Shown piece after piece: positions 31,199 through 47,204 of a stretch of DNA of 64,000 bases. The notes under the pieces were generated by a model, which made no database searches, was not told where the DNA came from, and saw only the letters and a program-made list of their open reading frames with translations. The DNA is from Sphingomonas quercus (GTDB lineage Bacteria > Pseudomonadota > Alphaproteobacteria > Sphingomonadales > Sphingomonadaceae). The position numbers and the translations under genes were made by a program. Within the stretch, counting starts at the first letter, position 1, and every line of letters begins with the position of its first letter. The stretch is from the NCBI RefSeq assembly GCF_018863195.1, contig NZ_JAHKRT010000011.1:1-64000 (forward strand). Reading direction: 5' to 3'.

Positions 31199-31215
31199 CA
31201 GGATGAATTATCCTG
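31199..31215. promoter_or_regulatory. TCAGGA operator, site A
   Basis: CAGGAT (31199-31204) and ATCCTG (31210-31215) form an inverted repeat around GAATT. The minus-strand half-site reads ATCAGGATAATT. It is 85 nt before the serine hydrolase at 31300 and the same distance from divergent chaA. Confidence 0.65.
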
Positions 31216-31299
31216 ATTGGGCTTGCAAACGCCCTGGACTGGCTTCAATCTGCCATCAAGGCCCGGTGCGTGGGCGCCGCCGCCACCAAAGGGGATAAG

Positions 31300-33300
31300 A
31301 TGATGCGCAAGCTCAGCGCCGCTGTGGCCGCAGCCATGGCATGTCTGACGAGTTTCGCCCTCGCCCAACAAAGTCCCAGCCTGTTGCCGCCGGCCTCGCC
31401 ACCGACTGCGCCGACTGCCGTCGCCGCGCCGCCGGCGACGCCGGGCGGGCCCGCGCAGCTGAGCCGCCAGGACGCCGAGACGTGGCTCGACGGCTTCATG
31501 CCTTATGCGCTCCAGCGCGGCGACGTGGCCGGCGCGACGATCATCATCGTCAAGGATGGCCAGGTGCTCCTCGAAAAGGGCTATGGCTTTTCGGACGTGG
31601 CGAAGCGGGTGCCGGTGGATCCCCGGCGCACGCTGTTCCGGCCGGGCTCGGTCTCCAAGCTGTTCACCTGGACGGCGGTGATGCAGCAGGTGGAAGCGGG
31701 CAAGCTCAACCTCGATGCCGACGTGAACCAGTATCTCGATTTCAAGATCCCGCCCTATCAGGGCAAGCCGATCACGCTGCGCAACATCATGACCCACACG
31801 GCCGGCTTCGAGGAGCGTATCCGTGGGTTGATCACCAGCGACGAAAGCAAGATCGGGCTGGAGAAAGCCGTCAAGGCGTGGATTCCGGAGCGGGTCTATG
31901 CGCCGGGCACAACGCCTGCCTATTCCAATTATGCGACGGCGCTGGCGGGCTATATCGTGCAGCGCGTCTCGGGCGAGCCGTTCGAGACCTATCTCGACAA
32001 TCACATCTTCCGGCCATTGGGCATGGCGGATTCGAGCTTCCATCAGCCGCTTCAGGCGCCTCTTCTGGCGCGCATGTCCAAGGGCTATCCGCGCGCCTCG
32101 GTGCCGGCCAAGCCCTATGAATTTGTGGGCCTGTCGCCGGCGGGGAGCCTGGCGACGACGGCAACCGACATGGGCCGCTTCATGCTCGCCCATCTCGGCG
32201 ACGGCGCGATCGGTGACGCGCGCATCCTGCGGCCGGAGACAGCGCGGATGATGCACACCACCGCGCTGACCGTGGTGCCGCCGCTCCACCGCATGCTGCT
32301 CGGCTTTTACGAGCATGACATCAACGGCCATCGCGTCATCGCCCATGCCGGGGATACCACCCTGTTCCACAGCGAGCTGAACCTGTTCATGGACGACCAT
32401 GTCGGCATGTTCGTGTCGCTGAACAGCACGGGCGCGCAGGGCGCGGCGGCGACGATCCGCTCGGCCTTGTTCGAGGGTTTTGCCGACCGCTATTTCCCCG
32501 GCCGGCCGGCGGATGGGGCGGTCGACGCCGCGACTGCTGCCGATCATGCCCGCGCCATGGCCGGCCTCTACGACGCGTCGCGCCGATCGCATGGCGGCTT
32601 CACCGCGGCGCTCGGCTTTCTCAGCCAGACCCGCATCGCCGAGGACGGCAAGGGCAGCATCGTCATCCCCGATTTCCGCACCTTCGGCGGCGCCACCAAG
32701 ACCTGGCGGGAGATCGCGCCCTTCGTGTGGCGCGAGGTCGGCGGCCAGGAACGCATCGCTGCGACGCTGGTCGACGGCAAGGTGGTGCGCTTCAGCATGG
32801 ACGCGATCTCGCCTTTTACCGTCTTCGATCGCGCGCCGTGGTGGCGCTCGACCGGGTGGCTGTCGCCCGCCGTCTACGCGGCGCTGGGTGCGCTGCTGTT
32901 GACGGTGCTGCTGTGGCCGACGGCGGCGATCGTGCGGCGGCGATTTGGTCAGCCGCTGGCGCTGTCGGGCCGGCCGCTGGTGGCGCGGCGCGCTGTGCGC
33001 GTGGCAGCCTTGCTGGCGCTGCTGGTGCCGGTGGGGTGGATGATGATCGTCCAGTCCCAGCTGAACTTCGCGCCGGAAGGCGCGCTCGGCGCCGAGCTGA
33101 TCGGCATGTACCTCCTGACGCTGGTCGCCTTCCTCGGCGGGCTCGGGCTGGCGGCGTGGAACGCGTGGCTGATCTGGCGCGGCGGGGCGCAGCGAGGCTG
33201 GTTCGCCAAGGCGTGGAGCGTCGTGCTCCTCCTCTCCTTCTTCGTGCTGCTGTGGCTGGGGTGGGTGTTCGGGCTGCTCAGCTTCCACACCGAATTCTGA
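31300..33300 (+). CDS. Secreted serine hydrolase (beta-lactamase/penicillin-binding fold) with C-terminal membrane helices
   Basis: A 666-residue protein with signal peptide (LSAAVAAAMACLTSFALAQ). The start follows AAGGGG. Catalytic motifs of the class-C beta-lactamase/D-peptidase group are present: SVSK (about residue 116), YSNY (about 207) and a late HAGD (about 349) in place of KTG/HxG. From about residue 520 there are about four transmembrane segments, so the catalytic domain is held at the inner membrane facing the periplasm. This fold includes DD-peptidases, D-aminopeptidases and esterases. It is 11 nt ahead of a second serine hydrolase and behind operator site A. Confidence 0.88.
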   Translation: MMRKLSAAVAAAMACLTSFALAQQSPSLLPPASPPTAPTAVAAPPATPGGPAQLSRQDAETWLDGFMPYALQRGDVAGATIIIVKDGQVLLEKGYGFSDVAKRVPVDPRRTLFRPGSVSKLFTWTAVMQQVEAGKLNLDADVNQYLDFKIPPYQGKPITLRNIMTHTAGFEERIRGLITSDESKIGLEKAVKAWIPERVYAPGTTPAYSNYATALAGYIVQRVSGEPFETYLDNHIFRPLGMADSSFHQPLQAPLLARMSKGYPRASVPAKPYEFVGLSPAGSLATTATDMGRFMLAHLGDGAIGDARILRPETARMMHTTALTVVPPLHRMLLGFYEHDINGHRVIAHAGDTTLFHSELNLFMDDHVGMFVSLNSTGAQGAAATIRSALFEGFADRYFPGRPADGAVDAATAADHARAMAGLYDASRRSHGGFTAALGFLSQTRIAEDGKGSIVIPDFRTFGGATKTWREIAPFVWREVGGQERIAATLVDGKVVRFSMDAISPFTVFDRAPWWRSTGWLSPAVYAALGALLLTVLLWPTAAIVRRRFGQPLALSGRPLVARRAVRVAALLALLVPVGWMMIVQSQLNFAPEGALGAELIGMYLLTLVAFLGGLGLAAWNAWLIWRGGAQRGWFAKAWSVVLLLSFFVLLWLGWVFGLLSFHTEF

Positions 33301-33311
33301 AGGACACCGGA

Positions 33312-34901
33312 ATGAAGACTTTACTCCTCGCCGCGACGGCCGCCCTCGCCTTCGTCGCGGCGCTCCCCGCTAACGCCGCGCCGCCCCCAGGCTTCGATGC
33401 GCGGGTGGAGGCGCTGCGCAAGCAGTTCGGCGTGCCCGGCGCCTCCATCGCCATCGTCGAGAACGGCAAGACGACGCTCGCCAAAGGCTATGGCGTTCGT
33501 CGGCTGGGCTCGCCCGAGCCGGTGGGCGCGGACACGATCATGACGATCGGCTCGACGACCAAGGCATTCACCGCGGCCGACCTCGCGCTGCTCGTCGACC
33601 AGGGCAAGATCCGCTGGGACGACAAGGTGGTCGACCACATGCCCTGGTTCCAGATGTACGACCCGTGGGTGACGCGCGAGATGACGATCCGCGACCTGCT
33701 CGTCCATCGCAGCGGGCTGGGCACCGGCCAGGGCGACCTGTTGTTCGTGCCGCGCAGCAATCGCACCCGCAAGGAAGTCGTCACCGCGCTGCGGAACATG
33801 AAGCCGAAGAACAGCTTCCGCGGCGGCTATGCCTATGACAACATCCTGTACATGGTCGCCGGCCAGCTCATCGAAGAGGTGACGGGCGAAACCTGGGAAA
33901 AATTCACCCGCGATCACCTGTTGCGCCCGGCCGGGATGGCGAAATCCACCAGCGACGATGACGGCTTCGTCGCCAGCCCCGATCACGCCCAGCCGCACGC
34001 GCGGATCAACGGCGCGATCCGCGGCGTCGGCGATCAGCAGGTGCTCGACGAGCGCTCTACGCTGGCGCCGGTCGCTTTTCCTGCCGGCGGCCTGTCGGTC
34101 AGCGCCAATGATTTCGCGCGCTGGCTGACCATCCAGCTCGGCCAGGGCGCGCTGCCCGAAGGCGGGCGGCTCTACAGCGAGGCGGTGGCGAACGACATGT
34201 GGCGGCCGGTGGTGCTCACCGGCGGCGGCGGGCGGCGGCCGACCGGGCCGCTCGGGGTGCTGCAGCCGATGTTCAGCGGCTATGCGCTCGGCTGGAACGT
34301 TCAGGATTTCCGCGGCGTCAAGATGATCTCGCACAGCGGCGCTGTGTTCGGGTTCCTGACAATGGTCGTACTGGTGCCGGAGAAGAATATCGGCTTCTCG
34401 ATCGTCATCAACAGCGAGGACGGCGTCTTTGTCCGTGGCCTCATGTACGAGCTGCTCGATCACTATCTAGGCTTTCCCAAGACGGACTGGGCGGCCATCT
34501 ACGCGAAGAATTCGCAAGATCAGCGCACGCGCGCCATCGCCGCGCTCCAGACCACGCAGGCGACGCCGGCCAAGGTCGGCCCTTCCCTGCCGCTGCAATC
34601 CTATGCCGGCGATTATGTCGATCCCTGGTACGGGCCAATGACGATCCGCTACGCGGACGGCAAGCTGCGCGTCGATTTCACGCGGACGCCGGGCATGACC
34701 GGCACGCTCGACCATTATCAGTATGACAGTTTCCGCGCGGTGCTCGACGACAAGTCGATCGAGGCGCCCTATCTCAATTTCGGCATCGGCCCGGACGGCA
34801 AGGTGGAGCGGATCACGCTGAAGGCGATCTCGCCGCTCGCCGATTTCAGCTATGATTATCAGGATCTGCTGTTCACCCCCGTCGCGGCGAAGCGGCCCTG
34901 A
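33312..34901 (+). CDS. Secreted serine hydrolase (beta-lactamase fold) with C-terminal DUF3471-like domain
   Basis: A 529-residue protein with signal peptide (LLLAATAALAFVAALPANA). Catalytic SxxK is STTK (about residue 80), the Tyr motif is YDN (about 174), and HSGAVFG (about 340) is the third box. The last about 100 residues (SYAGDYVDPWYGPMTIRY and after) form a lipocalin-like domain often labelled DUF3471, which follows this fold in many D-amino-acid peptidase-like proteins. No membrane tail, unlike its neighbour, so it is probably free in the periplasm or secreted. Likely co-transcribed with the gene 11 nt upstream. Confidence 0.9.
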   Translation: MKTLLLAATAALAFVAALPANAAPPPGFDARVEALRKQFGVPGASIAIVENGKTTLAKGYGVRRLGSPEPVGADTIMTIGSTTKAFTAADLALLVDQGKIRWDDKVVDHMPWFQMYDPWVTREMTIRDLLVHRSGLGTGQGDLLFVPRSNRTRKEVVTALRNMKPKNSFRGGYAYDNILYMVAGQLIEEVTGETWEKFTRDHLLRPAGMAKSTSDDDGFVASPDHAQPHARINGAIRGVGDQQVLDERSTLAPVAFPAGGLSVSANDFARWLTIQLGQGALPEGGRLYSEAVANDMWRPVVLTGGGGRRPTGPLGVLQPMFSGYALGWNVQDFRGVKMISHSGAVFGFLTMVVLVPEKNIGFSIVINSEDGVFVRGLMYELLDHYLGFPKTDWAAIYAKNSQDQRTRAIAALQTTQATPAKVGPSLPLQSYAGDYVDPWYGPMTIRYADGKLRVDFTRTPGMTGTLDHYQYDSFRAVLDDKSIEAPYLNFGIGPDGKVERITLKAISPLADFSYDYQDLLFTPVAAKRP

Positions 34902-34910
34902 CCTGAAAAA

Positions 34911-34942
34911 GGGCGGGATGGCGCGCTGCCGCCATCCCGCCC
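34911..34942. terminator. Intrinsic terminator between convergent genes
   Basis: A 13-bp perfect stem (34911-34923 with 34930-34942) and 6-nt loop. On the minus strand the stem is followed by TTTTT (complement of 34906-34910), so it is a textbook intrinsic terminator for the TonB receptor transcript and a barrier for the plus-strand operon. Confidence 0.8.
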
Positions 34943-34966: not shown

Positions 34967-37783
34967 CTAGAAAGTGACGCGCGCTCCCACCGAAAAATAG
35001 GTGCCGATCGCATCATAGAAGAGCGGGCCGGTCGGGCTGATCGGCGGCTGCTTGTCGAAGACATTGTTGACGTTGGCCGTCAGCCGCAGCCGCTCCGTGA
35101 CCTTATAGGATGCGCCGAGGTCGAGGTAGGTGAACGCCTTGATCTTGTTGTTGACGAGCACCGCATCGAGCAGATGGTCGTACTTGCCCTTGCCGACATA
35201 GCGGACGCGGGCGTCGATGCCGAGCGCCGAGCCCTGATAGTTGACGATCAGGTTGCCGCGCCAGCTGGGGATGGCGTTGGTGGTGGCGCTGCCGACGTCG
35301 CCGGCGCTGTCAACGCGGGTGATGCCGGTGTCGTAGACGAACTTCTTCACATAGGTGGCGAGCGCGCGGATGTTGAGCGTGCCCGACAGCGCGTTGCTGA
35401 GATCTGACAAGGGCACGCGCTGCGACAGCTCGATATCGAGGCCGGAAGTCTCGAACCGGGCGACGTTCTGGGCATTGGCGCGCACCACGCTGACGGTGCC
35501 GGTGGCGTCGCGGGTGATGCTGCCGCAGGCGGCTGCGTTGCCGTTGGCGCAGGCCAGCGTCAGCTGCGTGCCGGAGAGCGTGGCGATCGCCCCGTCGATC
35601 TTGATGTCATACCAGTCGACCGAGGCATTGAAGCCGGGCAGGAAGCGCGGCGAGAAGGTCGCGCCGAGCGTGGTCGTGTGGCTGATCTCGGGCACGAGAT
35701 CGGGATTGCCGCCGCTGAACGTCGTCACCGCCTGCGGTGTCGGATTATAGGCCGGATTGGCGGCGGCGCGGCCGGCGGTGTCCTGGTCGACGAGCGGGCG
35801 GACGTTGAGCGAGCTTACCGAGAACAGATTGCCGATGCTCGGCGCGCGGATGTCGCGCGAGCGGGTGCCGCGCAGCAGCAGCTGGTCGAACAGGTCGACG
35901 GTGGCGCCCCCCTTCCACGTCCACACGCCGCCGCTGCGGCTGTAATCCGAATAGCGCGCGGCGCCGTTGAGATCGATCTTCACCTTGTCCTCGATCTCGA
36001 AGAACGGCACGGCCACCTCCGCAAACCCCTCCTTGACGTTGAACTTGCCGGAGACGGGATTGCCGTAAAGATTGACGCCGCCGAACGCGCCGGCGAGGTC
36101 GAGCGCGCCCGCGGTGGCATGCTGGCTCTCCCAGCGTGCCTCGGCGCCGAAGGCGATGGTGATGGGCTGGCTGCCCCACAGCTTGAACAGGTCGCCCTGC
36201 ACCTCGGCGGCGGCGGCGTCGAGCTTGTTGGTAGAGTCGCTGCGCTGCGTACCCATGACGTAGCCGAGCGCGTCCGCCGAGGCGTTCCACGTGCCGAACG
36301 GATTGATCGGCCGGCAGGCGGCATCGTCATTGGCGGCGCTGGCGTCGGCGTTGATCGCGCAGACCGGGCCGTTGGCGCCGGCCACCGCGTTGAGCGCGTT
36401 GGTGAGCTTCGCGGCAATCGGCGTGTTGGGATTGCGCGTGCGGTTCTTCACCTCGCCGTGGCTATAATGGGCGCGCACCGTCCAGCTGCCGCCGAGATCG
36501 GCGTCGATGCCGATCGCGCCCTCGAGATTGCGGCGGCGCGCATCGAGGCCGAGCATGAACGGCCCGTCATAGAATTTGCCGAGCGTGAAGCTGGTCTGCC
36601 CGGCCGCCGCCAGTCGAGCCCTGATCGCGGGCGACAGGAACGGATTGGTGGCCTGGATGGTGAGGCTGGCAGGCCCGGCGATATCGGGCAGGAAATCATA
36701 TTGCGAGCGCGACTGTCCGAAGCTGCCGTCTACCCAGCCGGTGATGCCGGCGCCGAATTCATAGCTCGCCCGCGCGAAAGCGCTGATCCGCTCGACCGGC
36801 GTGCTGACCACCACCCGGTCATAAAGGCCGACGGCATCGGCACCGCCGATCGACTGGGCGGGGAACGGCGTCGTCACCGGATTGGCCGCCAGCGACTGGC
36901 CGGCGCGATAGGTGCGCAGCGTGCCGTCCTCGTTGAACATCTGCCCGGCGAGGGCGCCGCTGGTGATCAGGCCGGTAGACGTGACATTGCCGTAATTGAC
37001 GTCGCGCACGAGCACCTGGCGCGGATCGGTGGCCACCGTCGGATTGAGGCGGACGATGCCCGCGCTGCCGAGGTTGCGGCGGGAATTGCGGTCGGGGATC
37101 GACCGATCCTTCATATATTCGGCGCTGGCCATGATCTGGCCGCGGTCCTCCGCGAAGCCGGTGCCGAGCGTGATGTCGCCGCCATAGCGCCCGCCGTCCC
37201 CGCGCGACGAAATGCCGGTGGTGGCGCCGACGGTGATGCCGGTGACCTTGGTCTTGAAGATGATGTTGACGACGCCGGCGACGGCATCGGAGCCATAGGC
37301 GGCGGACGCGCCGCCGGTCACGGTTTCGACGCGGTCGACGAGGCCCATCGGGATGTAGTTCAGATTGTCGTTGCCGACGAAGCGGCGGCCGTTCAGCAGC
37401 GTCAGCGTGCGTCCGCCACCAAGACCGCGCAGGTCGATCGGCGCGCTGCCGCTGGAAGTGTTGCCGACCGACACCTGCGGCGTCGTCGTCGGGCGGAAGG
37501 CGGGGGAATCGTTCAGCACCTGCTGCAGATTGGGCCGGTTGCCCTGACGCAGATCGACCGCGCCGATTACCGTCGTCGGCGTCGGCGCGTCGAAGCCCGC
37601 GCGCTCGATGCGCGATCCGGTGACGGTGATCGTCTGCTCATCCTGGGCCAGCGTATCGGTCTGGTCGGGAGCGGCGGCCGGCTGGGCATGGGCGGCGCCG
37701 ACATGGAGCAGCGCGGCGGCCAGCGCGACCGCGCTCGGCCCACGGAATCGACGGATGATCGGATTGCCTGACGTGGCGTGCAT
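34967..37783 (-). CDS. TonB-dependent outer-membrane receptor
   Basis: A 938-residue protein. The signal peptide (VALAAALLHVGAAHAQ) is followed by the TonB-box/plug start QTITVTGSRIERAGFDAP. The plug has LNGRRFVGNDN and VETVTGGASAAYGSDAVAG, typical of sphingomonad receptors with very large barrels. It ends FSVGARVTF, an aromatic-terminated barrel strand. Placed in the TCAGGA regulon, among peptidases, it most likely imports peptides or peptide-like compounds across the outer membrane. The start at 37783 follows AGGGGGA. Operator site B lies about 95 nt upstream. Confidence 0.92.
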   Translation of the reverse strand: MHATSGNPIIRRFRGPSAVALAAALLHVGAAHAQPAAAPDQTDTLAQDEQTITVTGSRIERAGFDAPTPTTVIGAVDLRQGNRPNLQQVLNDSPAFRPTTTPQVSVGNTSSGSAPIDLRGLGGGRTLTLLNGRRFVGNDNLNYIPMGLVDRVETVTGGASAAYGSDAVAGVVNIIFKTKVTGITVGATTGISSRGDGGRYGGDITLGTGFAEDRGQIMASAEYMKDRSIPDRNSRRNLGSAGIVRLNPTVATDPRQVLVRDVNYGNVTSTGLITSGALAGQMFNEDGTLRTYRAGQSLAANPVTTPFPAQSIGGADAVGLYDRVVVSTPVERISAFARASYEFGAGITGWVDGSFGQSRSQYDFLPDIAGPASLTIQATNPFLSPAIRARLAAAGQTSFTLGKFYDGPFMLGLDARRRNLEGAIGIDADLGGSWTVRAHYSHGEVKNRTRNPNTPIAAKLTNALNAVAGANGPVCAINADASAANDDAACRPINPFGTWNASADALGYVMGTQRSDSTNKLDAAAAEVQGDLFKLWGSQPITIAFGAEARWESQHATAGALDLAGAFGGVNLYGNPVSGKFNVKEGFAEVAVPFFEIEDKVKIDLNGAARYSDYSRSGGVWTWKGGATVDLFDQLLLRGTRSRDIRAPSIGNLFSVSSLNVRPLVDQDTAGRAAANPAYNPTPQAVTTFSGGNPDLVPEISHTTTLGATFSPRFLPGFNASVDWYDIKIDGAIATLSGTQLTLACANGNAAACGSITRDATGTVSVVRANAQNVARFETSGLDIELSQRVPLSDLSNALSGTLNIRALATYVKKFVYDTGITRVDSAGDVGSATTNAIPSWRGNLIVNYQGSALGIDARVRYVGKGKYDHLLDAVLVNNKIKAFTYLDLGASYKVTERLRLTANVNNVFDKQPPISPTGPLFYDAIGTYFSVGARVTF

Positions 37784-37876: not shown

Positions 37877-37914
37877 ATTATCCTATTCAGGACAATAGAA
37901 CCCGTTCAGGATAA
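37877..37914. promoter_or_regulatory. TCAGGA operator, site B (three half-sites)
   Basis: ATTATCCT (37877-37884) faces CAGGACAAT (37888-37896), and a further TTCAGGATAATC begins at 37905. The 11-mer CAGGACAATAG here (37888-37898) is identical to one in site D, before the regulator. The site lies upstream of the TonB receptor, which starts at 37783 on the minus strand. Confidence 0.65.
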
Positions 37915-37963: not shown

Positions 37964-39457
37964 TCAGGGCTTTACGAGGCGATAGAGCATGTGCGGCTCG
38001 GACGCGAAGGAGAGCTTGGGCTCCTCTGCCGTGCCGTAGAATTCAACGCGCTCATAAGGCCCGCCGTCGCGCGCGCCCGTGACACGCTCGTAGAGGCGCG
38101 GGCCGATCTGCTCCCAGTAGCTTTTCGCGCCGTCGCGCTCGATGGTCAGCGCGTGCGGGCCAGCCGCGGCGACCTTGAGGTCGTAGCGGGGATTGGCGGG
38201 GCGGCTATAGTCGCGCCGGTCGGAGCGATAAGCGCCCATCGGCGACGGCGTTTCGGTGCCCGTCCAGCGCGGCGCCCGCTCCGTCGGGAACACACGGCCG
38301 ACGATTGCGGCGACGAGATCGGTGCGCGCATCGCTGCTCGCCGCGCCGCCCGTGAAGGACATGAAGAAGCCGAACTGCGCTTCCGGCGCGAGCAGCAGAT
38401 AGCTGTGCTGATCGCCGGTATTGCCGCCATGCTCGATCATGCGCGGGCCGGCCTCGCGCAGCACCATGAAGCCATTGGCGAAGCCGGGCAGGTTCGGCGC
38501 GTTCTTGAAGCCGTCCATGCCGAGGAAGCGCACCGATGCCGGCGAGAGGATGCGCGCCGGGCCGAGCTGGCCGCCATTGAGCATCGCCTGGATGAAGCGG
38601 GCCATGTCGGGCGCGGTCGCCGTGGCGGAGCCGGCCGGCGCTATGTTGCTGAACAGCTCGAAGGGGCGGGCGACGAGCCGGCCGTCGACCAGCCGGTAGC
38701 CGGTCGACATCCGCCCGGCGAGGCGCGCGGGCAGCGGCTCCCGGAAAGTCGTGTCGGGCATGCCGAGCGGCTGGAAGATGCGCTGCTCGGTATAGTCGTA
38801 GAAGGACATGCCCGAGACGCGCTCGACGATATAGCCGGCAAGCGCGGCGCCATAGTTGGAATAGGCGGATTCGGTGCCCGGCTCCCACATCTGCATGGGG
38901 ATGTGGGCCTTCAGCCACGCGCCATAGGGCACGAGATCCTCGACCTTGCCGGCCGAGATGCCGCCCTGATCGCCGAAGCCCGGCGTGTGCGACATCAGGT
39001 CCCGCACCCGGATCGGGCGGGTTTTGGGATCCGGGATCTTGAAGTCGAGATAGCGATTGACCGGGGCGTCGAGATCGACCTTGCCGGCCTCGACTTGCTG
39101 CATCAGCGCGACCCAGGTGACCAGCTTCGACACCGAGCCCGGGCGAAACAGCGTGCGCTCAGGATCGACCGGCAGGCGCCTGTCGAGATCGGCATAGCCA
39201 TAGCCGCGCGTGAACAGCACCCGGCCCTGGTGCACCACCGTCACCACCGCGCCGGCGACGTCGCGGGTGGCGATCTGCTGGGCGACGACGCCGTCGATGA
39301 AATCGGCGAGCCCGTTGAGGCGGGCGGCGGGGATCGCGTAGGCGGCCGGCGCCGACGGCTGGGCGACGACGGCGGGCAGCGGCAGCCCGAGCAAGGCCAG
39401 CGCAAGCGTCGCGGCGAGCCCCTTACGGACACGCGGTCCACGGTGCACATCAACCAT
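37964..39457 (-). CDS. Secreted serine hydrolase (beta-lactamase fold)
   Basis: A 497-residue protein with signal peptide (LAATLALALLGLPLPAVVAQ). Motifs: SVSK (about residue 108), YSNYGAAL (about 198), and HGGNTGD (about 340) as the third box. It is most like the gene at 31300 (same RGYGYADLDRRLPVDP, TLFRPGSVSKL and DFKIPDP-type segments) but lacks its membrane tail, so the two are paralogues. The start follows GGAGG (spacing about 9). Operator site C lies directly upstream, and the regulator gene is next on the same strand. Confidence 0.9.
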   Translation of the reverse strand: MVDVHRGPRVRKGLAATLALALLGLPLPAVVAQPSAPAAYAIPAARLNGLADFIDGVVAQQIATRDVAGAVVTVVHQGRVLFTRGYGYADLDRRLPVDPERTLFRPGSVSKLVTWVALMQQVEAGKVDLDAPVNRYLDFKIPDPKTRPIRVRDLMSHTPGFGDQGGISAGKVEDLVPYGAWLKAHIPMQMWEPGTESAYSNYGAALAGYIVERVSGMSFYDYTEQRIFQPLGMPDTTFREPLPARLAGRMSTGYRLVDGRLVARPFELFSNIAPAGSATATAPDMARFIQAMLNGGQLGPARILSPASVRFLGMDGFKNAPNLPGFANGFMVLREAGPRMIEHGGNTGDQHSYLLLAPEAQFGFFMSFTGGAASSDARTDLVAAIVGRVFPTERAPRWTGTETPSPMGAYRSDRRDYSRPANPRYDLKVAAAGPHALTIERDGAKSYWEQIGPRLYERVTGARDGGPYERVEFYGTAEEPKLSFASEPHMLYRLVKP

Positions 39458-39478
39458 TGCCGGATCCTCCTTGGCGCG

Positions 39479-39502
39479 ATCAGGATGAATTTTCTGATCA
39501 GG
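39479..39502. promoter_or_regulatory. TCAGGA operator, site C
   Basis: ATCAGGATGAATT, then a facing TTCTGAT and a further ATCAGG. On the minus strand the 14-mer CCTGATCAGAAAAT is identical to one in site E (43641-43654). The site ends 22 nt before the serine hydrolase start at 39457, close enough to block its promoter or ribosome site. Confidence 0.65.
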
Positions 39503-39559
39503 TCATAGGCGCGAAGGAAAGAGCAGGTCAATTCCTCTCATCGAGGGCGCCCGGGAGGA

Positions 39560-40273
39560 TTATGCGACCTTGCGCTCCGGCTTTTTCGCGGCACGGCGGC
39601 GGGCGGCCGGCGCAGTGGCGCTTTCGACTTCCTGCACCCGCTCGCCGTGGAGATTGATGAGCTCCGCCATCAGATCCTCGTCGGCACTCGACATCACCGC
39701 CATGACCACGGCTTCGTCACATCCCTCGCCGGCAAGATAGGCATGGCCCATCGACGAATCGATATAGATGAACTCTCCGACATTCAGGATCACCGGATCG
39801 TAGAATTCACTGTGAACGATGATCCGGCCCTCGACGACATAGATGAATTCCTCACCCGGATGCCGAACGAGTTCACCAAATTCCTCCAGAGATTTGGCAC
39901 GGATGCGTGTGACGCTGGGGATCATACGTTTGTGGCGCAATTCGGTGCACAGATAATAATAGTCGTAATTCTGGGTGTTGACATGGACGGACTGGGCAAG
40001 CGTGCCGATGCTGCGCCGCCCGGTCGGCACCGCGCCGGCAGCCGGCGCCGTCTCGCCCTCTGCAAACAGGTCCGACATGCGGATGTTCAGGCGCGCGCTG
40101 AGCTGCTGAAGCTTGTCATAGGTCAGCGTCAGCCGGTCATGCTCGACCTTGGACAGCGTCGAGATCGGGATGCCGCTATGCTGGCTCATCTCCTTGAGCG
40201 TCCATCCGTTACGGCTGCGGAGCCCCCGCATCACGGCGCCCAGGGTAAGTTGCCGACCCAATGCCACAGCCAC
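39560..40273 (-). CDS. XRE-family regulator with C-terminal cupin domain
   Basis: A 237-residue protein. GTG 40273 is preferred because GGGAGAG lies just upstream; the longer ATG at 40303 would lie inside operator site D. Residues about 8-65 are a Cro/C1 helix-turn-helix (LRSRNGWTLKEMSQHSGIPI then STLSKVEHDRLTLTYDKLQ). Residues about 130-205 form a cupin (HPGEEFIYVVEGRIIVHSEF, NVGEFIYIDSSMGHAYLAG), the ligand or metal sensor. The C-terminus is Lys/Arg-rich. XRE-cupin proteins usually repress catabolic genes until a small molecule binds the cupin. Its own promoter carries site D and five more sites lie within about 9 kb on either side, so it is the best candidate regulator. Confidence 0.9.
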   Translation of the reverse strand: MAVALGRQLTLGAVMRGLRSRNGWTLKEMSQHSGIPISTLSKVEHDRLTLTYDKLQQLSARLNIRMSDLFAEGETAPAAGAVPTGRRSIGTLAQSVHVNTQNYDYYYLCTELRHKRMIPSVTRIRAKSLEEFGELVRHPGEEFIYVVEGRIIVHSEFYDPVILNVGEFIYIDSSMGHAYLAGEGCDEAVVMAVMSSADEDLMAELINLHGERVQEVESATAPAARRRAAKKPERKVA

Positions 40274-40300
40274 GTCTCTCCCGTTGATGCCCGCTTGACG

Positions 40301-40316
40301 CATCCTGATCAGGACA
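40301..40316. promoter_or_regulatory. TCAGGA operator, site D (autoregulatory)
   Basis: A perfect 12-bp palindrome TCCTGATCAGGA (40303-40314) extended by CAATAG. It lies about 28 nt from the likely regulator start (minus strand) and 164 nt before the racemase gene (plus strand). A weaker TTAGGACAAG half-site lies at 40467-40476, just ahead of that gene. Confidence 0.7.
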
Positions 40317-40479
40317 ATAGCGTCCGCAGCAGGATTGGATGGCAGGCCGATGGATGCCAGGAATGGCCGTTTCTACCATCGCGGGGCCGGCCAGCGCAAT
40401 CGCGGCGAGAGACGAACCCGCCCCGGCCGGTCAAAAGCCGGTCGGCCGGGACCGGGCATTTCGGATTTAGGACAAGAGC

Positions 40480-41502
40480 ATGATCGACGAGACGGCCTGC
40501 ACGCTGACGGTGGAGCGCAAATCGTTGCCGCTCGCCAATCCGTTCCGCATCTCCGGCCATGTCTTCACCAGCTCGGATGTGATCGAGGTGGCGCTGTCGG
40601 ACGGCCGCCATGTCGGGCGGGGCGAGGCGGCGGGCGTCTATTATCTGGCCGACGGCGTGCCGCAGATGCTGGCCGCGGTGGAGAGCGTGCGCGACGCGGT
40701 CGAGCGCGGCGTCGATCGCGCCGGATTGCGCGCGCTGCTGCCGGCGGGCGGTGCGCGCAACGCACTCGACGCAGCCCTGTGGGAGCTGGAGGCCAAGCGC
40801 AGCGGCAAGCCGGTCTGGCAGCTGGCCGGCCTCGATGCCGCGCCCCGGCCGATCGTCACCACCTTCACGCTCGGTGCCGAGGCGCCCGGGCTGATGGCCG
40901 AACGCGCCCTCGCCTTCGCCGACCCGCAGGCGATCAAGATCAAGCTCACCGGCGATCTCGCGCTCGATCTCGCCCGCGTCGGCGCCGTGCGCGCGGCGCG
41001 GCCCGAATGCTGGATCGGCGTCGATGCCAATCAGGGCTTCGCCATCGGTGAGCTTGACACGTTGGTCGAGGGACTGGTCGCGCTCGACGTGAAGCTGCTC
41101 GAGCAGCCGCTGGCGCGCGGGCGGGAGGCGGATCTCGACGGCTATGCCTGCCCGATCCCGATCGCCGCCGACGAAAGCGTGCTGACGCTGGACGACGTCG
41201 CCGGGGCGGTCGGCCGCTTCCAGGTGATCAACATCAAGCTCGACAAGTGCGGCGGGCTGACCGAGGGGCTGGAGATGGCGCGCGCCGCCCGCGCGCTGGG
41301 GCTGGGCGTGATGGTCGGGAACATGGTCGGCTCCAGCCTGTCGATGGCCCCGGCCTTCATCCTCGGGCAGCTGTGTGACATCGTCGATCTGGACGGGCCG
41401 ATCTTCCTTGCGGAGGATCGCGTGCCGGCGATCGTCTACGACCGCGGCACCGCCTGGTGCGGCGAGGATCTCTGGGGGCGCGACAGCATCGACGCCGGAT
41501 AA
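40480..41502 (+). CDS. dgcA: Enolase-superfamily racemase/epimerase, DgcA-like (dipeptide epimerase type)
   Basis: A 340-residue protein of the muconate-lactonising subgroup. The catalytic and metal residues are in order: KIK (about residue 150; general base), VDAN Asp (about 181), LEQP Glu (about 206), ADES Asp (about 229), and KLDKCGG Lys (about 252; second base). This fits 1,1-proton transfer between D and L forms. Dipeptide (L-Ala-D/L-Glu) epimerases and the N-acetyl-D-glutamate racemase DgcA share this pattern. The DgcN-like gene at 44930 in the same regulon favours the DgcA reading. The gene starts an operon with the S9 peptidase. Substrate is an inference. Confidence 0.78.
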   Translation: MIDETACTLTVERKSLPLANPFRISGHVFTSSDVIEVALSDGRHVGRGEAAGVYYLADGVPQMLAAVESVRDAVERGVDRAGLRALLPAGGARNALDAALWELEAKRSGKPVWQLAGLDAAPRPIVTTFTLGAEAPGLMAERALAFADPQAIKIKLTGDLALDLARVGAVRAARPECWIGVDANQGFAIGELDTLVEGLVALDVKLLEQPLARGREADLDGYACPIPIAADESVLTLDDVAGAVGRFQVINIKLDKCGGLTEGLEMARAARALGLGVMVGNMVGSSLSMAPAFILGQLCDIVDLDGPIFLAEDRVPAIVYDRGTAWCGEDLWGRDSIDAG

Positions 41503-41514: not shown

Positions 41515-43614
41515 ATGTTCAAGCATCTGTTTCTGGCCGGAATTGCCGGACTCTCGCTCGCGACGCCGGTGCTCGCCGCCGATCCGCCGCCGCCGGCCCA
41601 GCTCGCCGACTTCATCGGCTACAGCTATGCGAGCCACCTCGCCGCGCCGCACCGGGGCGACCGCATCGCCTGGGTGGAGATGCGAAAGGGGGTGCGCAAC
41701 GTCTGGTCCGCCGCCGCGCCGGATTTCGCACCGCGCAAGCTGACCGACGGCACCCGGGACGACGGGCAGGACCTGACCTTCGTCACCTGGTCCCCAGACG
41801 GCCGCATTCTCGCCTGGGTGCGCGGCGAGGTCGAGCATAATGGCTGGGCCACCGGCGCGCCGGCCAACCCGGCCTCCGCCCCCGGCCAGCAGCAGGAAGA
41901 GCTGTGGGCTTCGGTGAACGGCGCGCCCGGCGTGAAGATCGCCGAGGGCTCCGAGCCACTCTTCTCGTCGAAGGGACAGCTCGTCTTCATCCGTGATTAT
42001 CAGGTCTATACCGTCGATCCGGCGAACCCGGGCAAGGCGACACGGCTGTTTTACGATCGCGGGCGGGTGGGCGGCCTCGCCTGGTCGCCGGACGGCAGCA
42101 GGCTCGCCTTCGTGTCACGGCGTGGCGACCATAGTTTCATCGGCATCTATAATGGTGCGGACACGCCGATCACCTGGGTCGCGCCGGCCACCGCCTATGA
42201 CGACAATCCGGCCTGGTCGCCGGACGGCACGCGCATCGCCTTCTCGCGCCGGACGGGCACGTTCGACATCCTCGCCGCCTCGGCGGGCGAGAAGCCGAAC
42301 CCCTTCTCGATCTGGGTGGCCTCGGCGGCGGACGGCAGCGCGCGGCAGGCGTGGAAAAGCCCGGCGACGCTCAACGGCTCCTTCCCGAGCGTGCCGGACG
42401 GGCTGTTCCTGATGTGGGGCGCGGGCGACCGCATCACCTTCCGCGCCGAGCTGGATGGCTGGGCGCATCTCTACGCGCTGCCGGCGGCGGGCGGCGAGCC
42501 GGTGCTGCTGACGCCGGGCGAGTTCATGGTCGAGCATGTGACGATGACGCCGGACGGCACGGCGCTGCTCTACAGCGCCAATGCCGGCAGCGTCGCCGGC
42601 GACATCGATCGGCGGCATGTGTTCCGGGTGGCGGTGGACCGGCCGGGACCGGCGGCGCTGACCCCGGGCTCTGGCCTCGAGTGGACGCCGGCGCCGCTCG
42701 CCGGCGGCCGCATCGCCTATATCTCGGCAACCGCGCAGACGCCCCCGCGCGTCGCCCTCGCCGGTGCCGACGGCAAGGGCGCACGGCTGATCGACCCGGA
42801 GCCGGCGCCCTTTCCTTCGCAACAGCTCGTGGTGCCAAAGCCGGTGACGTTCACCGCCGCGGACGGCACCGTCGTTCACGGCCAGCTGTTCCGGCCCAAT
42901 GGCGGCAAGGCGAAGAAACCGGCACTGGTGTTCGTCCATGGCGGGCCGCCGCGGCAAATGCTGCTCGGCTGGTCCTACATGGATTATTACACCCACAGCT
43001 ATGCGATGAACCAGTATCTGGCGTCGCGCGGCTATGTCGTGCTGTCGGTCAATTACCGGCTCGGCATCGGCTATGGCCGCGCCTTCCAGCATGCCGCGAA
43101 GGCCGGCGCCAGCGGCAATTCGGAATATCAGGACGTGGTCGCCGGCGCTCGCTACCTCCAGGCGCTCGCCGATGTCGATCCGGCCCGGCTCGGCATCTGG
43201 GGCGGTTCCTATGGCGGGTTGCTCACCGCGCAGGGGCTGGCGCGCAACAGCGATATCTTCAAGGCCGGTGTGGACCTGCATGGCGTGCACGACTGGACGC
43301 TCTATCAGAATCTCGGCGGGGGTACGCGCTACGAGCAGGGCGATGTTGCGGCGATGAAGAAGATCGCCTTCGAAAGCTCGCCCGAGGCGGCGATGGCGAC
43401 GTGGCGCTCGCCGGTGCTGCTGATCCATGGCGACGATGATCGCAACGTCCCGTTCAACCAGACGGTCGATCTCGCCCGGCGGCTGGCGGCACAGAACATC
43501 CCGTTCGAGGAGATGATCCTGCCGAATGAGGTCCATGGCTTTCTTCGCTACGACAGCTGGCTGCGGGCCGATGCGCGGATGGTCCGTTTCCTGGACGAAC
43601 GGCTGAAGCCATGA
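41515..43614 (+). CDS. Secreted S9-family (prolyl-oligopeptidase-type) serine peptidase
   Basis: A 699-residue protein with signal peptide (LFLAGIAGLSLATPVLA). The N-terminal half is a beta-propeller of PD40/WD40-like repeats (WSPDGSRLAF, WSPDGTRIAF). The C-terminal half is an alpha/beta-hydrolase: Ser in WGGSYGG (about residue 563), Asp in HGDDDRNVPF (about 639), His in NEVHGF (about 672). The family cleaves short peptides, often dipeptidyl- or acylaminoacyl-type. It begins 12 nt after the racemase behind AAAGGGG, so it is co-transcribed with it, and it is probably periplasmic. Confidence 0.92.
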   Translation: MFKHLFLAGIAGLSLATPVLAADPPPPAQLADFIGYSYASHLAAPHRGDRIAWVEMRKGVRNVWSAAAPDFAPRKLTDGTRDDGQDLTFVTWSPDGRILAWVRGEVEHNGWATGAPANPASAPGQQQEELWASVNGAPGVKIAEGSEPLFSSKGQLVFIRDYQVYTVDPANPGKATRLFYDRGRVGGLAWSPDGSRLAFVSRRGDHSFIGIYNGADTPITWVAPATAYDDNPAWSPDGTRIAFSRRTGTFDILAASAGEKPNPFSIWVASAADGSARQAWKSPATLNGSFPSVPDGLFLMWGAGDRITFRAELDGWAHLYALPAAGGEPVLLTPGEFMVEHVTMTPDGTALLYSANAGSVAGDIDRRHVFRVAVDRPGPAALTPGSGLEWTPAPLAGGRIAYISATAQTPPRVALAGADGKGARLIDPEPAPFPSQQLVVPKPVTFTAADGTVVHGQLFRPNGGKAKKPALVFVHGGPPRQMLLGWSYMDYYTHSYAMNQYLASRGYVVLSVNYRLGIGYGRAFQHAAKAGASGNSEYQDVVAGARYLQALADVDPARLGIWGGSYGGLLTAQGLARNSDIFKAGVDLHGVHDWTLYQNLGGGTRYEQGDVAAMKKIAFESSPEAAMATWRSPVLLIHGDDDRNVPFNQTVDLARRLAAQNIPFEEMILPNEVHGFLRYDSWLRADARMVRFLDERLKP

Positions 43615-43636
43615 CGCCCGGCCTGGACGGCAAATC

Positions 43637-43656
43637 TTGTCCTGATCAGAAAATAT
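43637..43656. promoter_or_regulatory. TCAGGA operator, site E
   Basis: CTTGTCCTGATCAGAAAATA: two facing half-sites (minus-strand ATCAGGACAAG, plus-strand ATCAGAAAAT). It shares a 14-mer with site C. It is 90 nt before the M19-type gene at 43747, in the gap after the S9 peptidase. Confidence 0.65.
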
Positions 43657-43746
43657 TCTCTTCCATGCCCCGTCCGATGCTGTAAAAGCTGTCGATGAGG
43701 ATCGGGCGGGCGTGAGGCCGCCCGCAATGCCAGCGGGGGTTCGCAC

Positions 43747-44889
43747 ATGACGCAAGGCCCGATTTCGCGACGGCGTGTGCTCCGCGGCATCGCCGCCGCC
43801 GGGGCCGTCGCGTTCCCGATGATCAACACCGGCCTTTACGCCGTGCATGCCCAATCTCCGAAACGCTATGCCAGGCGGGTCGTCGATCTCGTCAAGCAAT
43901 CGATCATCATCGACATGCTCGGGCCGCTGACGCTCGACTTCCGCCCGTCATCCTATGCGGGCCAATTGAGCGAGCAGCAGACCGACGACTTCCGGGCGAG
44001 CGGCATCACCGCCTTCCACAATGCGGTCGGCGTCGGCGGACGCGACGCCTATGCGTCGGTGATGACGTTCCTCGCCTCCTGGTCGGGGTTTGTCGGGCGC
44101 AACACCCACCTCTTCCGCCTCGCCAGCCATGCCAGCGACATCGACGAGGCCAAGAAACAGGGCCGTATCGCCGTCATCCAGGGCTTGCAGGATTCCGATC
44201 ATTTCCGTCGCCCGGCCGATGTGAAGGCGTTCTACGAGATCGGCCAGCGCTGCTCCCAGCTCACCTATAACAGCCAGAACCTGCTCGGCTCGGGGTCGAC
44301 CGATCGGGTCGACGGCGGCCTCAGTGACTTCGGCGTCAGCATCGTCAAGGCGATGAACGAGGTCGGCATGCTCGTCGACGTTTCGCATTGCGGCGACCGC
44401 ACGACGCTGGACGCCATCGCCGCCTCGACGGTGCCGATCGCCATCACCCACAGCAATTGCCGCGCGCTCAACAACCATCCGCGCACCAAGACGGATGAGG
44501 CGATCAAGGCGCTCGGCGCGAAGGGCGGCGTGATGGGCATTACCGGCGTGCGCATGTTCGTCAGCGCCAAGGAGCCGACGACGATCGCCGACCTCGTCGA
44601 CCATATCGATCACGTCGCCAGGCTGATCGGCGTCGATCACGTCGGTATCGGCACGGATGCCGATCTCTACGGTTATGACAAGATGCAGCCGGATCAATAT
44701 GCCGCGTTGAAGGCCGGCTATAAGGACAGCTACGGTTTCCGCGACAAGATCGACATCGAAGCCTTTTCAGGCCCGATGAAGATGTACAACCTCGTCGAGG
44801 AGCTGGTCCGCCGCAATTACTCCGACGACAATATCCGCGCGGTGCTCGGCGGCAATTTCCGCCGATTGCTCGGGGCGACCTGGAAATGA
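43747..44889 (+). CDS. M19 (renal-dipeptidase-type) protein with Tat signal and altered metal site
   Basis: A 380-residue protein. ISRRRVLRGIAAAGAVAF is a twin-arginine signal, so it is exported folded. The M19 C-terminal half is clear: VSHCGDR (His, about residue 213), ITHSNCR (His, about 234) and DHVGIGTDAD. The N-terminal half differs: the usual DGHND is replaced by IIDMLGPLT, and the bridging Glu (VEGG) by VIQGLQD. The first metal pair and bridge therefore appear missing. It may bind one metal, act on another substrate, or bind only. The true dipeptidase paralogue is at 47633. It is likely co-transcribed with the DgcN-like gene. Confidence 0.82.
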   Translation: MTQGPISRRRVLRGIAAAGAVAFPMINTGLYAVHAQSPKRYARRVVDLVKQSIIIDMLGPLTLDFRPSSYAGQLSEQQTDDFRASGITAFHNAVGVGGRDAYASVMTFLASWSGFVGRNTHLFRLASHASDIDEAKKQGRIAVIQGLQDSDHFRRPADVKAFYEIGQRCSQLTYNSQNLLGSGSTDRVDGGLSDFGVSIVKAMNEVGMLVDVSHCGDRTTLDAIAASTVPIAITHSNCRALNNHPRTKTDEAIKALGAKGGVMGITGVRMFVSAKEPTTIADLVDHIDHVARLIGVDHVGIGTDADLYGYDKMQPDQYAALKAGYKDSYGFRDKIDIEAFSGPMKMYNLVEELVRRNYSDDNIRAVLGGNFRRLLGATWK

Positions 44890-44929
44890 CGGCCGCCATC
44901 CCTCCCCTTTCAATGGATATGCTATCATC

Positions 44930-45967
44930 ATGCACGCGCTAACCGGCCACACGCGCACCCTGCAGATACCTTCTCCCTATCTGCTGTTCCTTGGCGACGT
45001 GGAGCTTGCGGGCTTCGCCAAGACCGCGCTCGGCCTGCGCGACTGGGCACCGGAGAAATGCCTCGGCGAACTGGCGCTGCCGACGGCGCGCGTCACCACG
45101 GGGCTTGCCGCGATGACCCCCGCCGAGGCCGCGGCAAAGGGCGCCAAATCACTGGTGATCGGGATTGCCTCGGTCGGCGGGGCGATCAAGCCGGAGTGGA
45201 TGCCGTCGCTGATCGCGGCGCTGGAGGCGGGGCTGAACCTTGTCAACGGCATGCACACCCGCCTCAGCGACCAGCCGGAGCTGGTCGCCGCGGCCGAGCG
45301 GCTCGGCCGGCGCCTGATCGACGTACGCGTGCCGCCGGCCAACATCCCGATCGGCACCGGCATCAAGCGTCCGGGCAAGCGCCTGCTGACGGTCGGCACG
45401 GATTGCGCGCTCGGCAAGAAATATACCGCGCTGGCGCTGACCCGCGCCTTTGCCGAGCGCGGGCTCGACGCCGATTTCCGCGCCACCGGCCAGACCGGGA
45501 TCATGATCGCCGGCGGCGGCATGCCGATGGACGCGGTCGTCGCCGACTTCGAATCCGGGGCAGCGGAAATCCTCAGCCCGCCTGCTGCACCCGATCATTG
45601 GGATGTGATCGAGGGCCAGGGATCGCTGTTCCATCCCGGCTATGCGGCCGTCTCGCTGGGCCTGCTGCACGGCAGCCAGCCGGACGTCATCGTGATTTGC
45701 CACGAGCCCGGACGCGATGTCGTGCTCGGCTGCGATGGCTTCGCCATTCCCAGCATCGAGGAGGCGATCGCGCTCAACCTCACGCTCGGCAGGCGGACCA
45801 ACCCGGCGATCCGCTGTGCGGGCGTGTCGCTCAACACCAGCGCGCTGTCGGACGTCGACGCGCTCGCGCTGTGCGCGGCGGAAAGCAAGCGACTAGGCCT
45901 CCCCGTCGCCGATCCGCTACGCGGCGGCGAAGCGTTCGCGGCGCTGGTCGAGAGCTGTCTGGCCTAG
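44930..45967 (+). CDS. dgcN: DUF1611 protein, DgcN-like N-acyltransferase of D-glutamate catabolism
   Basis: A 345-residue two-domain protein. The N-terminal Rossmann-like part contains YLLFLGDVEL and AKSLVIGIASVGG. The C-terminal part has a P-loop-like VGTDCALGKKYT (about residue 156) and IEGQGSLFHPGY. DUF1611 proteins named DgcN acetylate D-glutamate, and the product is converted to the L form by an enolase-superfamily racemase (DgcA). A DgcA-like gene sits 3.4 kb upstream under the same operator. It is downstream of the M19 gene by 40 nt. No good ribosome site is visible; translation may be coupled. The enzymatic role is inferred from family and context. Confidence 0.78.
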   Translation: MHALTGHTRTLQIPSPYLLFLGDVELAGFAKTALGLRDWAPEKCLGELALPTARVTTGLAAMTPAEAAAKGAKSLVIGIASVGGAIKPEWMPSLIAALEAGLNLVNGMHTRLSDQPELVAAAERLGRRLIDVRVPPANIPIGTGIKRPGKRLLTVGTDCALGKKYTALALTRAFAERGLDADFRATGQTGIMIAGGGMPMDAVVADFESGAAEILSPPAAPDHWDVIEGQGSLFHPGYAAVSLGLLHGSQPDVIVICHEPGRDVVLGCDGFAIPSIEEAIALNLTLGRRTNPAIRCAGVSLNTSALSDVDALALCAAESKRLGLPVADPLRGGEAFAALVESCLA

Positions 45968-45986
45968 TCCGTTCGCTTCGAGCCTG

Positions 45987-46023
45987 TCGGGAAGCGGCCA
46001 CCAGCGTCGCGGCCGCTTCCCGA
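45987..46023. terminator. Hairpin between convergent genes
   Basis: Perfect 13-bp arms (45987-45999 and 46011-46023) with an 11-nt loop, between the DgcN-like gene (stop 45967) and the permease that ends at 46053 on the minus strand. No T-run. Confidence 0.65.
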
Positions 46024-46052
46024 TGGGTTCGGCCCCGACGCGCCGGATTGCT

Positions 46053-47156
46053 TCAGGCGCCCGCCGCCGCGCGGCCGCGCAGCAGCCTGGCCACCCCGAT
46101 CGTGAACAGCGGCAGCAGGAATAGCAGCAGCACGCCCAGCGCCATCAGGCGATATCCCTTGGCGATCAGATCGACGAGGCCGATCGACGATGCGATGAAC
46201 ACCGAGCCGAACGTGATCACCGCCGGCACAGCGACGCGCATCGCCTTGGGCGTCACGCGGTTGCGACGGGCATTATAGGCGGCGATCCGGGCATTGAAGG
46301 CCTGCACGAAGCCGACGCTGCATTCGAGCAGGGCAAAGAACACCATCGTCTGAAACACATAGTGGAATAGCGGCCGGCCGAGCGCGCGAAGCACGTAGTC
46401 GGACGGCAGCGCCTCGTTCAGCACCGCCGGATAAAAGGCGACGAGGCAGACGAAGAAGGCGATCGCCGGCAGCATCGCCAGCGGTCCGGCGAACAGGCCG
46501 GAGATCACCGCGTCCCGCTCGCTGCGCAGGTGGCGCAGCACCGGCAGGATCAGCACCGCGCCCATGACATTATAGGCGGCATAGGTAAGACCGCCCGAAA
46601 TCCAGCCATCGGTCGGCACCGGCTTGGCGAAGCCGGCGGCGATCTCCGGGCTGAACGACCACAGGCTGAGCGCTACGAATGCCGCATAGACGGTGTAGAG
46701 CAGCACGGAGACATATTTGAACACCGCCTCGGCCGCGGTCTGCCCCGCTGCACAGACCAGCAACACGAGCAGGATCAGGCCGAGCGTTCCGACGATCAGG
46801 GGCAGGCCGAGCAGTGCCGCGCCGATATTGCCGGCGGCCGAGCCGAACACCGACAGGATCAGGATGAGATCGGCGAAATAAGCGATCTCGAAGGCGATGC
46901 CGAAGCGCCCGAGCAGGCCCTGGAAGAAGCTTTGATAGTCCAGCGCGCGCATGCGAAAGGCCAGCACGAAGGTGAGCGTGCACACCACGCTCCACACCGC
47001 CATCGCCAGGATCATCCCCCACAGGCCGCCCGTCGGTCCGGCGGGCATGAAGAACTCGACCAGCTCGCGCCCCGTCGCATAGCCCCCGCCGATCACCACC
47101 GCCTTGAAAGCAAGCCCGGGCAGCAGGAAGCGGTTGATCGACGACATCAGGCGCAT
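46053..47156 (-). CDS. YkvI-type inner-membrane permease (APC-superfamily-like)
   Basis: A 367-residue protein with about 10 transmembrane helices. AVVIGGGYATGRELVEFFMP in the first helix and hairpin is characteristic of the YkvI membrane family, which is related to amino-acid/nucleobase transporters of the LeuT/APC fold. AAYNVMGAVLILPVLRHL lies in the middle. No member of this subgroup has a substrate I can name. Its position in the regulon suggests it carries the amino acid or dipeptide into the cytoplasm. The start at 47156 follows AAGGGAC. Operator site F lies about 29 nt upstream and is shared with the divergent ACT-like gene. Confidence 0.85.
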   Translation of the reverse strand: MRLMSSINRFLLPGLAFKAVVIGGGYATGRELVEFFMPAGPTGGLWGMILAMAVWSVVCTLTFVLAFRMRALDYQSFFQGLLGRFGIAFEIAYFADLILILSVFGSAAGNIGAALLGLPLIVGTLGLILLVLLVCAAGQTAAEAVFKYVSVLLYTVYAAFVALSLWSFSPEIAAGFAKPVPTDGWISGGLTYAAYNVMGAVLILPVLRHLRSERDAVISGLFAGPLAMLPAIAFFVCLVAFYPAVLNEALPSDYVLRALGRPLFHYVFQTMVFFALLECSVGFVQAFNARIAAYNARRNRVTPKAMRVAVPAVITFGSVFIASSIGLVDLIAKGYRLMALGVLLLFLLPLFTIGVARLLRGRAAAGA

Positions 47157-47184
47157 GCAACGTCCCTTGACAATTATTGCAAGA

Positions 47185-47204
47185 TCAGGACATTTTTATC
47201 CTGA
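47185..47204. promoter_or_regulatory. TCAGGA operator, site F
   Basis: Perfect inverted repeat TCAGGA (47185-47190), 8-nt AT-rich spacer, TCCTGA (47199-47204). It is 29 nt from the permease start (minus strand) and 65 nt from the ACT-like gene (plus strand). Confidence 0.7.

Follow-up and report, generated by a model that had tools for sequence, protein, structure and literature searches.

Which genes answer to the XRE-cupin regulator that lies in a 64,000-nucleotide stretch of Sphingomonas quercus (contig NZ_JAHKRT010000011.1, positions 1 to 64,000; hereafter the window), and which signal would it sense? The regulator gene, here called REG, occupies 39560..40303 on the minus strand (247 aa as called). 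The original prediction had proposed one regulon around it with six operators, and this proposal held up: a motif derived from REG orthologues recovers the sites, permuted motifs fail to do so, the sites lie at promoters, a TonB-dependent receptor co-occurs with REG, and a paralogous locus (L137) adds to the picture. We consider it likely that REG is a repressor of the XRE-cupin type acting on the uptake and cleavage of peptides and on D-glutamate (D-Glu) recycling by DgcN- and DgcA-like proteins, and that a D-Glu-related metabolite releases it.

The operator motif was obtained by a one-site-per-sequence palindromic search on the upstream regions of 40 REG orthologues, with the window sequence excluded. 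When the number of sites was left unlimited, the search converged on mere AT-richness, and the one-site model was used instead. The 40 loci, of up to 20 kb each, were picked from 74 listed places outside the S. quercus genome and spread over genera; two of them (G025 and G030) represent a fragment and a less similar protein. The search yielded an 18-bp palindrome with a log-likelihood of 257 (120 starts), compared with 91 for shuffled sequences (60 starts). A score of 12 was set as the threshold for calling a palindrome, and weaker units were called by position. Column-permuted motifs (200 or 1000) and 160 kb of DNA from the same 3.64-Mb genome served as controls. The window contains eight matches of at least 12, of which seven belong to the six sites, called A to F, and one, at 57137, is new. 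The 16.2-kb locus thus holds seven matches, the rest of the window one and the 160-kb control three (Fisher 2.6e-6). None of 1000 column-permuted motifs reached seven matches in the locus.

Direct reading of the sequence found the six sites where they had been placed (A 31199-31215, B 37877-37914, C 39479-39502, D 40301-40316, E 43637-43656 and F 47185-47204), each in front of the gene unit named for it, and the exact shared words were present as well, CAGGACAATAG in B and D and CCTGATCAGAAAAT in C and E. The half-sites had been described as facing each other; the comparison instead gives an 18-bp back-to-back palindrome resembling TTRTCCTGATCAGGAYAA, which corrects the earlier geometry at A, C and F. 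Half-sites of the form WTCAGGAYAA occur at the six sites in general, with site C lacking an exact one. That none lies elsewhere in the window is correct for the exact half-site (all six window copies fall in the locus) and incorrect for the palindrome, the best match of which is at 57137-57154. With at most one mismatch, the half-site was found 15 times in the window, compared with 3.5 expected, and 0/100 shuffles reached 15. The genome has 33 exact copies, 27 of them outside the window. As a genome-wide predictor the exact half-site was rejected: none of these 27 coincides with a palindrome of at least 12. Therefore, the half-site alone is not diagnostic, though the locus is enriched in it. 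The palindrome TTRTCCTGATCAGGAYAA with at most three mismatches has six places in the genome, three of them in the locus (37878, 40300 and 43637).

Site A (31189..31225) precedes the genes of two S12-type hydrolases, SerA and SerB, with units at 31189-31206 (weak, 8.2) and 31208-31225 (13.5); by eye it can be aligned with the orthologues' REG-SerA operator. Site B (37878..37914) precedes the TonB receptor gene with units at 37878-37895 (21.5) and 37897-37914 (14.6), and a TTGATA-N17-TTCTAT promoter directed at the receptor can be seen by eye. Site C (39471..39506), before a third S12-type hydrolase, has units at 39471-39488 (weak, 6.6) and 39489-39506 (18.8) and lies downstream of a possible -10 box. 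The single unit of site D (40300..40317; 14.0) lies between REG and the DgcA-like/S9 operon, where by eye a TTGACG -35-like box is followed directly by the palindrome and then by the operon. Site E, also a single unit (43637..43654; 23.8), precedes the M19-DgcN unit. Site F (47176..47213) lies between a permease gene and the operon of a small open reading frame (ORF) and the dipeptidase M19b; its units are at 47176-47193 (weak, 10.8) and 47196-47213 (18.0), and by eye TTGACA stands in front. Like those of the orthologues, sites A, B, C and F are pairs of units spaced 18-20 bp.

Upstream of the REG orthologues, a first unit of at least 12 was present in 36 of the 40 loci, and 24 of these 36 have a second unit (at least 6) at exactly 20 bp downstream; any other offset within 12-60 bp on either side occurs three times at most. 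In 33 of these 36 loci, a TTGACA-like -35 box (at least five of six letters) stands 6-8 nt ahead of the first unit. Because the operator lies directly behind the -35 box, its position suggests a repressor. Across the 40 loci, 73 matches of at least 12 were found in 19.2 kb upstream of cluster genes, compared with eight in 282 kb of coding DNA (0.028 per kb). When the training promoters were removed, the remaining 11.5 kb of held-out cluster-gene upstream regions still contained 23 matches (2.0 per kb), whereas permuted motifs gave a mean of 0.9 and a maximum of 12, and 0/200 reached 23. Held-out regions with a site included those of the M19 dipeptidase M19a (6/7), the S9 peptidase (1/1) and SerB (1/1). 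Comparison supports the operator, its conservation, its position at promoters and the content of the regulon, and it does so strongly for the regulator and the operators.

REG orthologues (E<=1e-50) were found in 64 of 397 genomes of the family, S. quercus included. Orthologues of the TonB receptor (E<=1e-200) occurred in 17 of the same 397, and 16 of these 17 also hold REG (hypergeometric 5e-13, uncorrected for phylogeny and linkage); only two candidates were scored per genome, so that receptors may be missed. A site of at least 12 lies upstream of 15 of 21 TonB receptor genes (13/19 without S. quercus), for which permuted motifs gave a mean of 1.3 and a maximum of 11; the 21 are from 22 places, L155 having been left out with its locus cut by a contig end. 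A GTDB scan confirmed 302 REG relatives, of which the best 80 were used. Among these, the operator stands upstream of REG in 20 of the 21 genomes labelled outside sphingomonads (permuted mean 0.9, maximum 15, 0/200 reaching 20). Their labels are Luteimonas, Pseudoxanthomonas, Stenotrophomonas, Lysobacter, Lysobacterales, Rudaea, Steroidobacter relatives and Niveispirillum, together with two metagenome-assembled genomes (MAGs) of Chthoniobacterales and two broadly labelled MAGs; MAG labels in this set may be wrong, and the genomes share descent. The other 59 of the best 80, sphingomonad relatives, have the operator in 57 cases, a figure not counted as independent, as these upstream regions partly overlap the training genomes. 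In nine other genomes of the genus searched, no REG match at E<=1e-50 was found. The idea of a genus otherwise lacking REG was nevertheless dropped, as G008 has, next to SerA, a REG fragment truncated by a contig end; the site there scores 15.9 bits. This locus (L017, G008:C165:1-1618), with its REG fragment, SerA and operator-like site, comes from an assembly of about 880 contigs with 7% contamination. A REG orthologue (L190) is also found in Sphingosinicella microcystinivorans, a species known for degrading microcystin, a cyclic peptide containing D-Glu.

The original list of sites proved incomplete, as an unlinked paralogous locus, L137 (G000:C1:206500-225500), carries the same operators upstream of each of its genes for a TonB receptor, an S9 peptidase and an S12-type hydrolase. 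Its TonB receptor is 59-61% identical to that of the window and its S9 peptidase 39%. By eye, the TonB and S9 promoters of L137 are similar to sites B and C, respectively. The locus holds four motif matches of at least 12; one of 1000 permuted motifs reaches four there, and none achieves both seven in the REG locus and four in L137. L137 is the only other cluster of predicted operators that was examined in the genome, and its TonB receptor, S9 and S12 genes are paralogous to those around REG. No XRE-cupin was found among the ten L137 ORFs scanned, one of which encodes a MarR-type protein. A degenerate form of the palindrome with at most two mismatches has 20 places in the genome: five in the REG locus, one at 57137, four in C1:213-218 kb and ten elsewhere. 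Contig C11 has five matches to the degenerate palindrome, four of them spaced about 450-470 bp (G000:C11:173781-175183, in L138), apparently a repeat array; these five were set aside. A site at C12:283413 scores 16.3, and three neighbouring ORFs scanned gave no Pfam match.

The genes behind the sites indicate what the regulon may serve. SerA (31270..33300, plus strand; PF00144, 201 bits) has a beta-lactamase fold of the S12 type. The SerB ORF (32727..34901, plus strand), an S12-type hydrolase with DUF3471, has its domain match from residue 223, which places the probable real start near 33.3 kb. The TonB-dependent receptor (34967..37783; PF00593 and PF07715) and the third S12-type hydrolase (37964..39457; PF00144, 212 bits) are on the minus strand. 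None of the three hydrolases reaches the cut-off of 415 of the class C beta-lactamase model NF033085 (SerA 86.7, SerB 67.8 and the third 75.4 bits). On the plus strand follow a DgcA-like racemase/epimerase of the enolase superfamily (40480..41502; NF042940, full model), the S9 peptidase (41515..43614; PF00326), M19a (43747..44889; PF01244, 253.9 bits) and a DgcN-like DUF1611 protein (44930..45967; NF041892, 319/326 positions). The gene at 46053..47156 (minus strand), named a membrane permease by the original prediction, has conserved synteny and no match in Pfam or NCBIfam. The last unit (47269..48919, plus strand) consists of the small ORF (116 aa), which had been called ACT and has no Pfam match, and M19b (PF01244, 375 bits). 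Among the fetched stretches of the 40 orthologous loci, SerA is present in 35, the DgcN-like gene in 36 and the DgcA-like gene in 33. The typical order there is REG divergent from SerA, followed by the DgcA-like gene, often M19, the DgcN-like gene, the permease and SerB; the window differs in that SerA is not adjacent to REG. In L074, a further TonB receptor gene lies between the DgcA-like and DgcN-like genes.

S12-type, M19, DgcN-like and DgcA/L-Ala-D/L-Glu epimerase-like families are known for substrates with D-residues, and the enzyme set points to peptides with D-residues as the substrate. The regulon might instead serve ordinary L-peptides or another substrate, such as proline-rich or cyclic peptides, with the DgcN- and DgcA-like genes not engaged in D-Glu recycling. 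S9 enzymes are general, and some relatives have an X-Pro peptidase and POT-family peptide transporters (the latter in L074 and L068; these genes and the further TonB receptor gene of L074 are at L074:13211-14752, L074:14886-17156 and L068:5209-6771). Both proteins also fall below curated cut-offs, the DgcA-like protein with 357.7 bits against 400 for NF042940 (one relative, 350) and the DgcN-like protein with 443.6 against 480 for NF041892 (three relatives, 441.7-452.2), which weakens the assignment to D-Glu. The DgcA-like protein scores 212 bits with the L-Ala-D/L-Glu epimerase model (cut-off 343), and the L-Ala-D/L-Glu epimerase 1jpd is its second-best match in the PDB. Since the four families are co-located and recur together in the orthologous loci, we regard the L-peptide alternative as unlikely, although it is the most serious of those considered.

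REG itself has an N-terminal HTH_3-type domain (28.4 bits, cut-off 23) and a C-terminal cupin (Cupin_2, 36.1 bits, cut-off 27.2), both above the Pfam cut-offs, and is thus an XRE-cupin protein by domain content, with a predicted palindromic operator beside its own gene. The true start is perhaps an internal GTG near 40267-40273, because most aligned orthologues begin there and a GGGAGAG stretch precedes it by eye. Residues H148, E152 and H187 are invariant in 22/22 and 30/30 aligned sequences, and correspond to the iron-binding triad of HppE. The structure model (mean pLDDT 71.6, pTM 0.48) resembles HppE and the Vibrio cholerae regulator 1y9q, the TM-scores by query length being modest (0.33-0.43). 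The cupin probably holds a metal.

The position of the operator suggests that REG binds as a dimer and represses its neighbours. A role as activator or dual regulator is improbable. It would be in line with the presence of more than one geometry, site C lying behind a possible -10 box and paired sites being common, and NceR, counted among XRE-cupin regulators in passages of PMC12724383, appears in that paper's reference list as an activator of ompA. However, the first palindrome of the orthologues lies directly behind the -35 box, where binding should block the polymerase, and the XRE-cupins of Pseudomonas aeruginosa described in passages of PMC7901475 are local inhibitors of their neighbours with one or two targets each, except PauR, and bind palindromes in a manner taken as dimer binding. 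More improbable still is that another transcription factor binds the palindromes and REG is adjacent by chance. The MarR-type gene near L137 might be cited for it, as might the distant XRE-cupins (36-44% identity), of which 10/13 have similar palindromes (permuted maximum 9/13); the operator type therefore belongs to a wider clade and is not private to REG orthologues. Against another factor, the genome has one close REG relative (a second match, on C12, spans the helix-turn-helix part only), and the operator accompanies REG across alpha- and gammaproteobacterial genomes. In a small control, no match of at least 12 was present at four DgcN loci of three genomes that lack a REG orthologue; two of these genomes carry distant XRE-cupins.

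Besides the wider occurrence of the palindromes and the scores of the two enzymes, several observations weigh against a single REG regulon. Held-out upstream regions with a site were few for DgcN (7/30), TonB (2/5), DgcA-like (0/3), M19b (0/2) and permease (0/1) genes; those without a site are presumably mostly operon-internal genes, which would be expected to have none. Six of the 21 TonB upstream regions lack a site, one in G226, which has no REG, and five in genomes with REG. Site A is weak (13.5 and 8.2), and half of the 20 degenerate-palindrome places are neither in the two loci nor elsewhere in the window. In the whole window, one of 200 permuted motifs reaches 12 matches, compared with eight for the real motif (permuted mean 1.3), and the argument therefore rests on the locus and not on the window total. 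The motif is AT-rich like promoters, and single permuted motifs reach 11/21 TonB, 15/21 far and 55/59 sphingomonad upstream regions. That the sites are chance matches in AT-rich promoters is nevertheless hardly credible: a single site carries about 18 bits, less than a 3.6-Mb genome needs, and scattered matches exist, but the permutation and held-out tests tell against it. Finally, the top-scoring palindrome of the window (57137..57154; 26.6, zero mismatches to the degenerate form) stands 9 bp upstream of a GH127 ORF without an evident link to the other genes. This possible seventh site, of uncertain membership, may belong to the regulon or to another regulator. Behind the GH127 glycosidase ORF lie genes for an amidohydrolase and another TonB receptor.

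Taken as a repressor, REG would bind as a dimer to 18-bp palindromes that overlap promoters and frequently form tandem pairs at a spacing of about 20 bp; its binding, dimerisation and repression rather than activation are inferred. Its local targets would be REG itself with the divergent DgcA-like/S9 operon, SerA-SerB, the TonB receptor, the third S12-type hydrolase, M19-DgcN, and the permease and small ORF-M19b, and its target in trans would be the TonB receptor/S9/S12 genes of L137. The TonB receptors would import peptides, which the S9, S12-type and M19 enzymes would cut, partly at D-residues, and the DgcN- and DgcA-like enzymes would convert the freed D-Glu to L-Glu. We infer a D-Glu-related inducer: a pathway metabolite such as D-Glu, N-acetyl-D-Glu or a D-Glu dipeptide might enter the probably metal-holding cupin and release the repressor. 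Tentatively, and with somewhat less than even confidence, we see here a dedicated metal-cupin switch for scavenging D-Glu peptides from peptidoglycan or other D-peptides, which would place S12-type, M19, TonB and DgcN/DgcA-like genes under one operator, unlinked loci included, and would move as a regulator-operator unit between alpha- and gammaproteobacteria, perhaps also Verrucomicrobiota. The analysis provides a testable operator, regulator and gene list for peptide and D-amino-acid scavenging, a system found repeatedly in sphingomonads and xanthomonad relatives. Automatic annotation could take beta-lactamase-fold hydrolases for resistance genes, and the regulon suggests a role for them; remote targets are also predicted, which would be overlooked if the neighbourhood alone were analysed.

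The regulon had been called previously unremarked, which is compatible with the open-licence PMC literature, where no description of it was found (regulon databases are not covered by that literature search). A term search of the main text of an XRE-palindrome survey (PMC12565409) returned no 'sphingo', 'TCAGGA' or 'TCCTGA'. The type of switch is known, whereas the gene set and the operator look new. According to passages of PMC7901475, PsdR of P. aeruginosa is, like REG, an XRE-cupin with palindromic operators near its own gene and represses peptide uptake and a dipeptidase; however, it has two sites (dppA3 and mdpA), whereas the REG regulon would comprise six local sites and a remote locus, and would include TonB receptors, S12-type and S9 enzymes and DgcN/DgcA-like genes. 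PauR of P. aeruginosa and PuuR of Escherichia coli also resemble REG as XRE-cupins with several scattered sites (12 locations for PauR in the same source), but they serve the polyamine pathway, and REG matches the PuuR equivalog model NF007408 weakly (33.4 bits, cut-off 211). DbuR of Pseudomonas putida, as presented in passages of PMC12724383, is an XRE-cupin repressor encoded divergently next to a D-amino-acid operon and protects a stretch with a 20-bp palindrome and a predicted -10 box; it differs from REG in acting on D-branched-chain amino acids, on one operon and through another palindrome sequence. For the DgcN-DgcA pathway, PMC12363236 (in part) names DgcN as the key gene in a route that racemises acidic D-amino acids and their amides, and PMC10845958 (in part) has DgcN-DgcA converting D-Glu to L-Glu. 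The DgcN-like and DgcA-like enzymes of the present cluster resemble that pathway, with scores below the cut-offs, and unlike it the cluster has genes for peptide uptake and cleavage attached.

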